Positions 1-3,942 of a stretch of 38,335 nt of DNA are shown piece after piece (positions within the stretch are counted from its first letter, which is position 1; each line of letters starts with the position of its first letter). The DNA comes from Nitrospira sp. SB0677_bin_15 (GTDB taxonomy: Bacteria > Nitrospirota > Nitrospiria > Nitrospirales > UBA8639). The notes beneath the pieces are model-generated. The model did no database searches. It was not told the origin of the DNA and saw only the letters and a program-made list of their open reading frames with translations. The stretch is taken from assembly GCA_009842645.1 (NCBI GenBank), contig VYFB01000092.1:1-38335 (forward strand), written 5' to 3'. The position numbers and the translations under genes are program-made.

Positions 1-38
1 GCCTTGCCCTTCTACCTCCCCTACCCCCTCCTTACAAA
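1..38. repeat. Left half of dispersed intergenic repeat, split by the IS element
   Basis: The block 'tctacctcccc...ctccttacaaa' is the left module of the GC-rich repeat also present near 7861, 9513, 12043 (reverse) and 16377. It continues on the far side of the insertion element at 3006 with 'cttacaaaggagggg', so the repeat was whole before insertion. Confidence 0.75.
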
Positions 39-61
39 GGGAATTATATAGTTAAATAAAC
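39..61 (+). repeat. Left terminal inverted repeat of the IS element
   Basis: These 23 bases are the exact reverse complement of 2983-3005. The outermost bases are GGG, followed by an A+T-rich tract. Confidence 0.93.
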
Positions 62-133
62 ATTTAATCTTGACTTATTCTGTTTATTTTAGTAACACTG
101 TTCCATCATTCACGAACAGAAGAGGTTAAGATA

Positions 134-1078
134 ATGGCGCACGATTACGTTACTATCAGCGAATTTGAGTTCTTGTCCAGATTTGATACCGAAGCCAAGG
201 CTGTTGAGTTTTTTGAATCTGTCCGGTGGAAGGATGGGCGAACCTGTCCGCATTGTGACCATCAACATACCTACCAGCATAAGACCCGTCAATTCTTTTA
301 TCATTGTCGGGCATGTCGGAAACAATTTACTTGCAAAGTACATACGATCATGCACGCGAGTCCGCTTCCTGTGAAGATGTGGCTCTTTGCTATGTATAAG
401 ATTTCTGTTGCTCGAAAAGGCATCTCATCACTTCAACTATCTAAGCAACTGGGGATTACCCAAAAGTCAGCATGGTATATGCTCCATCGGATTAAAGAAG
501 CCTGTGGAGGCGACCAAGGCCCGTTGAGTGGGATTATTGAGGTTGATGAGACCTTTATCGGTGGGAAAGCCAAGAATAAACATCAGGACAAGAAACCGAA
601 GAAGATCAGAGGCACGGAAGGGAAACAAGCCGTCTTCGGAATGCGTCAACGAGGTGGCAAGACATTTGCGAAACCTGTGCCAAGAACGGACCGGAATACG
701 TTAGTCCCGGAAATTGAACAACGAGTTGAATCCGGAAGTATTATTTACAGTGATGAAAGTGGGACGTATCGTGAGTTAGATGCTAACAAGTATTTTCATG
801 ACTCCGTTAATCACTCGGCTGGAGAATTTGTAAATGGCTTCGTGCATACCAACGGAATGGAGTCGGTTTGGGCAGTCTTGAAACGATCAATCGTTGGAAC
901 GTACCATCATGTCTCATTCAAACATTTGCACCGATATGTGAATGAAGCCACGTTCCGGTTGAATGACGGAAGGGTGGACAATCACGTGATGGATCGGATT
1001 ACAACTCTTTGTCGTTTGAGTCTGGATAGACAATTGCCGTATGCTACGTTGACGAGGGGGCTTCATGTTAGCGTTTGA
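134..1078 (+). CDS. IS1595-family transposase (ISXO2-like)
   Basis: This 314-aa protein is the transposase that would cut and join the ends of the surrounding element. It starts with a zinc-ribbon: C38 and C41 (CPHC), then C58 and C61 (CRAC), typical of the IS1595 N-terminal domain. A helix-turn-helix-like stretch follows at about residues 95-122. The catalytic DDE-type domain shows D138 in EVDETFIGGK, D207 in YSDESGTY and N240 in HTNGMESVW, followed by E243 and K250 (LKR), matching the family's D-D-N-E/K pattern. A purine-rich ribosome-binding site (agaggt) precedes the ATG by about 9 bases. The frame is intact and full length for the family. Its end overlaps the next gene by 14 bases, suggesting translational coupling. 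Confidence 0.93.
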   Translation: MAHDYVTISEFEFLSRFDTEAKAVEFFESVRWKDGRTCPHCDHQHTYQHKTRQFFYHCRACRKQFTCKVHTIMHASPLPVKMWLFAMYKISVARKGISSLQLSKQLGITQKSAWYMLHRIKEACGGDQGPLSGIIEVDETFIGGKAKNKHQDKKPKKIRGTEGKQAVFGMRQRGGKTFAKPVPRTDRNTLVPEIEQRVESGSIIYSDESGTYRELDANKYFHDSVNHSAGEFVNGFVHTNGMESVWAVLKRSIVGTYHHVSFKHLHRYVNEATFRLNDGRVDNHVMDRITTLCRLSLDRQLPYATLTRGLHVSV

Positions 1079-1922
1079 AGACATCGTGCAACGAGTAGCG
1101 GAGACGAAGCCTAAAAAGATTCGACAGAAAACCAAGCGAGCTCTGCCGGGGCAGCAATTTCTTGAATTTATTGAACATGACCTTGACGGAAACGTAATTC
1201 CACAACGTCCCAGGGATGGATATGTCAATGCGACGAAGTTATGTAAGATTGCTGGAAAACCATTTGGAACATACCACCAAAATAAGCAAACAAAAGAATA
1301 TCTTGAGGCTCTTTCCTTAGATATAGGAATCCCTATATCTAACCTTACCCAAATTATAAGAGGTCGTGGTGACAGGTTAGAGCAGGGAACGTGGGTTCAT
1401 CCTCAAGTGGCAATTCACCTAGCACAATGGCTCTCTCCTGAGTTTGCTGTTCAAGTCAGTAAATGGGTGTTTGATTGGATGCGAGGGAGTGTGAAGGGCT
1501 ATATGCCCGCTCACGTTCAACGTTATATAAAAAATCGGACAAAAATTCCCCCAAATTACTTTTCGATGCTCAATGAAATCTATCTCAACTTTCTAGCACC
1601 CCTTGAGGATTATGGGATTATCCCGCCCGATAAGATTATGCCCGACATATCTACTGGACGTATGTTTTCAGAATTTTTGAGAAAAAGAGGAATCAATCCA
1701 AACGACTTCCCAACTTATGACCATGAGTTTGTTGATGGCTCTCGCCCAACCGTCTATGCGAGATTATACCCGCTCAAATATTTGGAAGAGTTTCGGGACT
1801 ACTTCAATCATGTTTGGCTTCCTCAAAAGGCTTTAACGTATTTGCAAAGAAAATTTCCCAGAGCTGTACCTTATATTGACAGAATTACAACGCTCCCTTC
1901 ACCAACAAAAGCACTGCCATGA
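1065..1922 (+). CDS. KilA-N domain passenger protein
   Basis: This 285-aa protein is encoded inside the IS element. Residues about 32-138 look like a KilA-N domain: DGYVNATKLCKIAGK at 51-65, then TWVHPQVAIHLAQWLSPEFA at 109-128 and VSKWVFDWM. KilA-N domains are DNA-binding modules common in phages and large DNA viruses, often fused to a second domain. The C-terminal half (about 145-285) is not assignable by eye. The basic N-terminus (KPKKIRQKTKR) could aid nucleic-acid contact. The start overlaps the transposase end by 14 bases, so the two are probably translated together. A role in target choice, regulation of transposition or exclusion of other DNA is speculation. KilA-N assignment is fairly sure; function is unknown. 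Confidence 0.82.
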   Translation: MLAFEDIVQRVAETKPKKIRQKTKRALPGQQFLEFIEHDLDGNVIPQRPRDGYVNATKLCKIAGKPFGTYHQNKQTKEYLEALSLDIGIPISNLTQIIRGRGDRLEQGTWVHPQVAIHLAQWLSPEFAVQVSKWVFDWMRGSVKGYMPAHVQRYIKNRTKIPPNYFSMLNEIYLNFLAPLEDYGIIPPDKIMPDISTGRMFSEFLRKRGINPNDFPTYDHEFVDGSRPTVYARLYPLKYLEEFRDYFNHVWLPQKALTYLQRKFPRAVPYIDRITTLPSPTKALP

Positions 1923-1962
1923 ATCGCTTCACCAGCAAAATATAACTATTGGGAGGTAATTA

Positions 1963-2160
1963 ATGATTAATTTAACGACACTCAAGGCGGCTTGGGATTC
2001 TGTAGCGTATATTGATGGCTATAACACAACCACAGAGACTACAAAGGCTATTCGAGTCGCGCAAGCCAGGGCAGATATAATTATCGCCGAAGGACAAGAC
2101 GAGCCTGCAAGGTCTATACAACTTAAACAAGCTCAAGCATCTTTAGCTAGCTATTCATAG
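1963..2160 (+). CDS. Small passenger protein of unknown function
   Basis: A 65-aa frame preceded by a strong ribosome-binding site, gggaggt, about 5 bases before the ATG. The composition is mostly soluble, Ala/Gln/Thr-rich and probably helical in the second half (about residues 26-62). No known motif, signal peptide or membrane segment is visible. It lies 40 bases after the KilA-N gene and 13 bases before the next gene, inside the IS element and in the same orientation. The good ribosome-binding site and tight packing argue that it is real. No function can be proposed. Confidence 0.65.
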   Translation: MINLTTLKAAWDSVAYIDGYNTTTETTKAIRVAQARADIIIAEGQDEPARSIQLKQAQASLASYS

Positions 2161-2173
2161 CGAAGGAGTCTTT

Positions 2174-2959
2174 ATGATTACTACACGGTTACTTTTAGCG
2201 CTTGTTCTGTTTCCGCTTTCTCTATATGCCGGTGATTCAGAAGCATGTTGGGACGTGGTGTGGAATAAGCAGTCTTATTGCGTTTCTGATGACCCTTTTA
2301 TACGATCTCAAGAGAAGTTTGCACATCAGCAGGAAAAGAGCAAAGCGCCAAACGATCGCAGTAGGAAATATAGAGCGTATTTCAACCGAAGTGAAGAACT
2401 CAAAGACCTGATTGAAGACCTCAATAAACAACGAAAGCCTGTTATTTTATTTTATAAAGATAAAGCCGGTCGTGCAAAGGCTCAACGACACCAAGCCCAT
2501 AACGAAGCCCTCAACAAGAAGGTGAAAGACCTTGAACGAGAGCGACTAAGTATCAAAGAGAAAATGGCGCAGCTTCCTTCGCAGCAGATCTTAGAAATAC
2601 CTTTGGAACGGTTAGAGGATTTGTATGACGTAGCGGTTGACATTTCCGTGCGGGATAGACTTGTTCCTCTTTATCACGAAAAATACCGTCTTGAGGATTT
2701 TATTTATATCGGCTATCCAGCCCGAGACTTGGAATTGCGGGCTATGCTAGATCAAATACAAGGTTCCAGAAAGAGAACAGATACCGTGCCTTGTTACGTA
2801 AGTATGTACGAATACAAAAGGTTTGAGAAAGAAGTCCGAAAACAACTAGAAGACATTGAAGCGCGACGTTGCTTGTTATACAAAGAAAAGACAAAGGCTC
2901 AACAACAGGTGGAAGAAGTCAGGCAAAGTATTCGGGTAGAGAAATCTAAGAGGCGGTAA
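2174..2959 (+). CDS. Secreted coiled-coil passenger protein
   Basis: This 261-aa protein begins with a clear Sec signal peptide: a hydrophobic run at residues 5-17 and a likely cleavage site after LYA (about residue 19). The mature part is highly charged, with long Glu/Lys/Arg/Gln-rich helical stretches at about 72-135 and 205-258 that look like coiled coils. Five cysteines are visible in the mature part (C25, C36, C202, C229 and others nearby), which could form disulfides in the periplasm. A good ribosome-binding site (aaggag) lies 5-6 bases upstream of the ATG. It is the last gene of the IS element and ends 24 bases before the right inverted repeat. A secreted passenger is unusual for an IS. 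No family is recognised. Confidence 0.75.
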   Translation: MITTRLLLALVLFPLSLYAGDSEACWDVVWNKQSYCVSDDPFIRSQEKFAHQQEKSKAPNDRSRKYRAYFNRSEELKDLIEDLNKQRKPVILFYKDKAGRAKAQRHQAHNEALNKKVKDLERERLSIKEKMAQLPSQQILEIPLERLEDLYDVAVDISVRDRLVPLYHEKYRLEDFIYIGYPARDLELRAMLDQIQGSRKRTDTVPCYVSMYEYKRFEKEVRKQLEDIEARRCLLYKEKTKAQQQVEEVRQSIRVEKSKRR

Positions 2960-2982
2960 GAACTATTGGTTTACACGAGAAG

Positions 2983-3005
2983 GTTTATTTAACTATATAA
3001 TTCCC
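2983..3005 (-). repeat. Right terminal inverted repeat of the IS element
   Basis: Exact 23-bp reverse complement of 39-61. It is followed directly by the second copy of the 8-bp target duplication at 3006-3013. Confidence 0.93.
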
Positions 3006-3034
3006 CTTACAAAGGAGGGGAAGAGGAGAGAGAA
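3006..3034. repeat. Right remnant of the repeat split by the IS element
   Basis: The duplication cttacaaa is followed by 'ggaggggaagagg', the continuation expected from intact repeat copies such as 7883-7900. The stop codon and the last codons of the methyltransferase on the other strand lie in this repeat. Confidence 0.7.
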
Positions 3035-3942
3035 CCTTTGGTGCTGGAATGTTCAAAGCGCAACCCGTTTACAGAAACGTTCCAATGCCAGTATTCTCCA
3101 TTTTGGCTTGAAGACATCTCTGCGTCGATACGGTTGCCTCGGTCCACGGAAACGGGGCGACCAATGGGGAAAAAGGCCAGCCCCCAATGCGAGGCTTTAT
3201 CCTGGGGGCCATTGGAGATAGAAAGACCGGGAATCAATTCGGCGTTGAACCACCCCGCCAATCCGTGAAGCCAACCCTGCCGCCTGACGTGGATGGTGAA
3301 ACCTGCCTTGACTTCCGTCTGAGTCGTTTCCCCGAATTCAATTTCCTGTACGCGCAGGGGATCACCCAAAAACGTGCCTTCGTGCAGCTTCAGCGGATGA
3401 AAGTTGTTCACCGTCAAGTGCCGAACGGGTGAAAAGTCGAATCCCTGACACCGGTTCACCCAAAAGTCGATCACGTGTTCATAAAATTGCGGCAGTTCCA
3501 CCGGCACGAGAAACAGTTCCACGCCGTGGGGGATGAGGGTGCCACCCTTTTTAAGCAAACGCTCCCTGGCATCGGTCAGGGACCCGAGAATCCCTTCTTC
3601 AAACCCGAAGGTGCCCATCGTCTCCGTCACGATAACGTCTGCAGGTTCAGGCAAATCCACGTTGAAAGACGAGGCATTGTAAAACGTGATCCGATCTTGA
3701 AATCCGTTTTTCGCCGCCACGAGTTCGGCGATGTTGATGACGGGTTCACTCTCAATGGCATGTACGTGGCGAGCGCCGGCACGGCACGCGAAAAACGAGA
3801 GAATGCCCGACCCGCAGCCCACGTCCACCACCACGTCACCCGGTTTCACGACTTTGGAAACGGCTCGACTGTAGGCGCCCGTCCTCGTCTCGTCAATCAG
3901 CATCGACAGGTGATAATTGATGAAGTCGGTGTATTTCGTCAT
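3007..3942 (-). CDS. PRMT-like SAM-dependent methyltransferase
   Basis: This 311-aa protein resembles protein arginine methyltransferases. The N-terminus has the YF-type helix region (HLSMLIDETRTGAY, residues 11-24). Motif I, VVDVGCGSGIL, sits at 38-48, and the acidic SAM ribose-binding motif ends at E64 (HAIE). The double-E loop is present: E107 in TETMG and E116 in GFEEG, nine residues apart as in PRMTs. A THW-like motif appears late as SHWGLAFFP. The family transfers methyl groups from SAM to arginine guanidino nitrogens; the bacterial substrate is unknown. The C-terminus, ending SSSPPL, is written by a dispersed repeat, and its stop codon falls in the IS target duplication. The IS inserted directly beyond the stop, so the protein is intact. 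Confidence 0.8.
   Translation of the reverse strand: MTKYTDFINYHLSMLIDETRTGAYSRAVSKVVKPGDVVVDVGCGSGILSFFACRAGARHVHAIESEPVINIAELVAAKNGFQDRITFYNASSFNVDLPEPADVIVTETMGTFGFEEGILGSLTDARERLLKKGGTLIPHGVELFLVPVELPQFYEHVIDFWVNRCQGFDFSPVRHLTVNNFHPLKLHEGTFLGDPLRVQEIEFGETTQTEVKAGFTIHVRRQGWLHGLAGWFNAELIPGLSISNGPQDKASHWGLAFFPIGRPVSVDRGNRIDAEMSSSQNGEYWHWNVSVNGLRFEHSSTKGSLSSSPPL

Follow-up and report, generated by a model that had tools for sequence, protein, structure and literature searches.

A complete IS1595-family transposon in Nitrospira whose main cargo is probably the phage-defence gene bstA

Here we report that the window, a 38,335-nt stretch of the genome of Nitrospira sp. SB0677_bin_15, contains a complete transposon of the IS1595 family, and we propose, from sequence comparison, that this is probably an autonomous element whose main cargo is the phage-defence gene bstA. 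Its parts are arranged as follows:

31..38: left copy of the target-site duplication (TSD), CTTACAAA, 8 bp
39-3005: complete IS1595-family transposon of ~3 kb, with ends, TSD and intact transposase
39..61, + strand: left terminal inverted repeat (TIR), GGGAATTATATAGTTAAATAAAC, 23 bp
134..1078, + strand: IS1595-family transposase, 314 aa, with zinc ribbon and DDE domain
1065..1922, + strand: bstA homologue, 285 aa, with KilA-N and BstA C-terminal domains
1963..2160, + strand: 65-aa ORF without detectable relatives
2174..2959, + strand: 261-aa ORF with a hydrophobic N-terminus, without detectable relatives
2983..3005, - strand: right TIR, the exact reverse complement of GGGAATTATATAGTTAAATAAAC, 23 bp
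3006..3013: right copy of the TSD, CTTACAAA, 8 bp

By its sequence the element is a member of the IS1595 family. The TIRs pair over 23/23 bp and are flanked on both sides by CTTACAAA, in keeping with the family's ends of about 25 bp beginning GG and its 8-bp target duplication, and an end scan returned this single TIR and TSD solution. All four ORFs lie on the + strand with their frames intact, and the first 14 nt of bstA lie within the end of the transposase gene. The transposase matches the IS1595 DDE domain (PF12762, 9e-45), the zinc ribbon (PF12760, 3e-11) and NF033547 (2e-57), and carries motifs fitting a catalytic D-D-E (D136 in the region EVDET, YSDES at 205, NGMES at 240). Consensus scans for promoters and terminators gave scores near shuffle level. 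The element is present as a single copy in its genome, which also encodes two other full-length IS1595 transposases, 49-51% identical to that of the window and with methyltransferase ORFs behind them.

Insertion is demonstrated from two directions, since the target is a palindrome that is restored on excision and dispersed in the genome, and since the empty site is found in two congeners. When the element and one TSD copy are removed in silico, the flanks join as CCCCTCCTT-ACA-AAGGAGGGG, a perfect palindrome. Counting exact matches in the window genome, CCTCCTTNNNAAGGAGG occurs at 32 other places and a reversed control pattern at none. The target palindrome CCTCCTTACAAAGGAGG spans window positions 22-38 plus 3006-3020 and is dispersed genome-wide; the transposon occupies the loop of one copy. 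The palindrome is uninterrupted in congeners G013 (locus L255) and G011 (L257), where the orthologous site follows the same methyltransferase gene. An origin of the ends as chance inverted repeats is ruled out by this empty site and the 32 target palindromes. A sequence-only reading of the window had described the IS1595 element as complete and passenger-bearing, and had proposed related strains as the place to look for an empty site; the perfect 23-bp ends, exact 8-bp TSD, intact transposase and congener sites bear out both.

The host genes first met after the element are a PRMT-like methyltransferase gene kept across the genus and then a transporter-like ORF; they are not phage genes. The PRMT-like gene (window 3007-3942, - strand) has PRMT_C and PRMT5_C matches and is present in 14/14 genomes of the genus searched. 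To our knowledge, protein-arginine-methyltransferase-like genes are unusual in bacteria.

The sequence-only reading did not recognise the passenger set, in which it listed a KilA-N protein; that protein is, on the basis of its domains, the known protein BstA. It matches PHROG 6287, “BstA abortive infection system, replication inhibitor”, over residues 35-264 (E 3.6e-49), PADLOC BstA over the C-terminal domain (2e-16) and Pfam KilA-N (1e-24), and in alignment it is 45-63% identical to 11 homologues and keeps the conserved family columns. BstA is a published prophage protein that acts alone, blocking phage DNA replication in abortive infection, and is associated with a self-immunity DNA element, aba; 21% of BstA homologues in the published survey are prophage-independent (PMC8585504). 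The window protein shares with the family described from Salmonella prophage BTP1 (Owen et al. 2021, PMC8585504) the KilA-N and C-terminal domains, full-length homology and the conserved columns, but its gene lies on a chromosomal IS1595 transposon rather than a prophage, overlaps the transposase at its start and has no recognisable aba repeat. The longest direct repeat near the bstA start, in a scan for aba-like repeats, is 7 nt, a length matched by 9.5% of shuffles; aba elements are homologue-specific, so a missing known motif is little informative. No relatives of the window BstA with solved structures were found by sequence, and a fold search gave a single weak, KilA-N/APSES-like match, to the APSES domain of Mbp1. 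We found no bstA in 97 related genomes searched; 396 genomes of the window's phylum added one partial match and no more.

The association of an IS1595 transposase with bstA recurs. In four further cases an IS1595 transposase directly overlaps the bstA start, one in a Dehalococcoidia genome (L006) and three (L151, L158, L168) in viral contigs, which are metagenomic and some of which may be misassigned host DNA. All four of these elements have TIRs, three of the four have a target duplication, and their BstA proteins match PADLOC BstA in 4/4 cases. L006, recovered from 14 species-collection bstA loci, has perfect 27-bp ends and an 8-bp duplication around a transposase directly upstream of bstA; among 400 genomes of its phylum, a search for further BstA returned two loci, both already in the set. 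L168 has perfect 42-bp ends and an 8-bp duplication, and lies between two PHROG family 98 genes. L151 is inserted in the ORF of another IS1595-type transposase, ~0.8 kb from a phage-type repressor gene, with a duplication that the alignment shows as 7 bp and that becomes 8 bp when the left end is moved by one base. L158 adjoins a RecE-like exonuclease gene and has inverted ends and no clean target duplication. The window transposase, used as a lone query against the viral contigs, found no close relative there; its closest relative, at L051 (57%), has no BstA, and no recognisable ends were found for it.

The two phylogenies are consistent with cargo that has been exchanged repeatedly. On the BstA tree, IS-borne proteins fall in three branches (four label changes), and on the transposase tree the BstA label needs five changes, at least four of them set by supported branches. 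A single capture of BstA by IS1595 is ruled out by the label changes on both trees. Sister transposases carry other kinds of cargo: P63C proteins, in one case with a PemK-type toxin gene after it; C5 and N6/N4 methyltransferases, several of which also have HNH, Mrr or HSDR_N domains; Mom; a type IIG-like enzyme; and, as read by eye, what is likely a glycosyltransferase. Some have no cargo beyond a micro-ORF. Elements closed with ends and duplication, which are not all of those with cargo, include L054, L056, L057, L061, L165, L166, L168, L226 and L237. Since IS-borne bstA is found in three branches and other cargo on related transposases, we regard the position behind the transposase as an exchangeable slot: cargo has been exchanged behind a stable transposase, and the slot reused for genes likely acting on phage or foreign DNA.

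Several of these loci deserve mention in their own right. IS1595 elements with ends and duplication carry a Mom-family DNA-modification gene (L226:5773-6240) and a PemK/MazF-type toxin gene (L165:6386-6811). In the same genome and genus as the window, L049, L055, L057, L059 and L060 have an IS1595 transposase followed by methyltransferases fused or adjacent to HNH, Mrr, HSDR_N or type IIG sequences, and these methyltransferase/nuclease loci could possibly be minimal restriction-modification transposons.

Cargo proteins of related elements also share sequence at their starts. Six from one transposase clade (L151, L158 and L165-L168) begin with a K-x-I-E-P-I-x-x-S-F-E-x-V-V-like segment, behind which the main domains differ (BstA, P63C or unassigned). 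In leave-one-out profiles the left-out member topped ~6,000 other sequences with E 1.6e-8 to 0.015 (best unrelated ~2), E-values that are exploratory, as they come from small sets picked after the motif had been seen. Fifty-seven of 100 IS1595 loci have a loose LDxIADxVLxYRP-type pattern in the ORF behind the transposase, counting fusions and the window's own loose match. In the viral-contig loci L169-L247 (e.g., L184, L187, L207 and L247) it forms a micro-ORF of ~40-48 aa, LDxIADxVLxYRPKPK plus a basic tail, which when stand-alone in most cases shares 4 nt with the end of the transposase gene. The micro-ORF evolves as coding sequence, with third-position changes dominant and pN/pS of 0.32, and its profile matches a fused segment in two methyltransferases and the L006 BstA (E 4e-8, 7e-7 and 3e-5, likewise exploratory values). 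The N-terminus of the window BstA gave no significant match to the micro-ORF profile (1.1 bits) or the IEPI-tag profile (E ~100), and we therefore do not claim the segment for it. Tentatively, a branch of IS1595 may have a dedicated slot, in which a second ORF set on the transposase stop joins a short conserved N-terminal segment to interchangeable domains directed at phage or foreign DNA (BstA, P63C, methyltransferases). Such a segment would link the defence genes to their transposon, and the result would be exchangeable anti-phage cassettes, able to pass between chromosomes and phages and to bring their own immunity where an aba-like site is included; in the window element, itself a cassette of this type, the segment would have diverged or been lost.

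The other two passengers are of a different kind. In profile libraries neither ORF had a convincing match (best E 0.02). Homologues of the 261-aa protein were not found in 59 related genomes, plasmids or PDB sequences, nor those of the 65-aa protein in phage genomes, and both are absent from every other locus compared, including the four other IS1595-BstA elements. Long helices are predicted for the 261-aa protein (model mean pLDDT 56), and its hydrophobic N-terminus is likely a signal peptide. The two genes are probably element-specific additions. The sequence-only reading had asked whether the passengers recur in other IS1595 elements: bstA does, in four of them, and the 65-aa and 261-aa genes were found in none; its suggestion that the three are selected as a unit finds no support in the loci and collections searched.

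A conserved three-gene system is rejected on this same absence of homologues in the loci and collections searched. One might still suppose that the passengers, being on the same strand, closely spaced and inside one element, make up a single new multi-gene defence system in which BstA needs the 65-aa and the exported 261-aa protein, the more so as in L006, L151 and L158 the last gene, after bstA, likewise is a small ORF encoding a hydrophobic or exported protein. However, these third genes show no sequence relationship to one another or to those of the window, L168 lacks one altogether, and prophage BstA works alone (PMC8585504); we consider such a system improbable. It also seems improbable that the cargo is a passive hitchhiker, captured by chance and under no selection. 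The single copy of the element, the lack of bstA in 97 relatives and the two orphan passengers would fit that reading, but all frames are intact, the conserved BstA columns are kept, and different IS1595 lineages have taken up this type of gene on several occasions.

An unlikely, though more serious, competitor is that the BstA-like protein serves the transposon itself, binding element DNA and repressing or limiting transposition as an autoregulator, so that its likeness to a defence protein reflects ancestry only. KilA-N is a DNA-binding domain, here with the weak fold match to the Mbp1 APSES domain, bstA is coupled to the transposase gene, and the conserved N-terminal segment that related elements have on their cargo could reflect a connection with the transposition machinery. 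Against this, the transposases of sister elements function with cargo of quite other kinds, or with the micro-ORF as the sole addition, and the protein retains the C-terminal domain of prophage BstA. From the repeated capture we infer that bstA has been selected as defence cargo.

On the favoured reading, a transposon with bstA as its defence cargo, the transposase would move the whole unit as one block, and bstA would be translated by coupling to the transposase, as the 14-nt overlap suggests. Through its KilA-N domain, the protein would become associated with phage DNA during replication, as reported for prophage BstA. Going by its homology, phage DNA replication would be stopped and infection aborted, and cells bearing the transposon would resist some phages. 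Landing in a prophage or plasmid could bring defence to the new carrier, together with self-immunity provided that the bstA locus includes an aba-like site. Counting against this reading are the lack of BstA and of recognisable ends at L051, the closest transposase relative, the lack of an aba-like repeat above shuffle level, and the absence of bstA from the 97 related genomes.

The element can be viewed alongside known passenger-bearing transposons. With tISCpe8 and MTnSag1, IS1595 elements with passengers (PMC5704250), it shares the transposase family, ends of ~25 bp, the 8-bp duplication and cargo inside the ends; unlike theirs, which is lincomycin resistance or mobilisation (PMC5704250), its cargo is a gene for phage defence that begins within the end of the transposase gene. 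Phage-defence genes are also reported as cargo of Tn7-like transposons (PMC8649781), whereas the window element has one small IS-type transposase and one main defence gene behind it in 3 kb, with no Tn7 targeting genes among its four ORFs. A literature search, with most subscription journals and ISfinder outside its coverage, found no paper joining IS1595 with KilA-N and no BstA paper with IS1595 as its subject, and the accessible part of the BstA description (PMC8585504) does not mention IS1595; the combination could be recorded elsewhere.

Based on these comparisons, phage defence by BstA seems to move also on small transposons. If IS-sized transposons carry BstA repeatedly, also in viral contigs, then genes for abortive infection can pass among phages, chromosomes and plasmids with no phage being transferred. 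Transposon-borne BstA raises the testable question of an aba immunity site travelling with the gene, and the slot behind the IS1595 transposase is a simple place to look for new defence and counter-defence genes.
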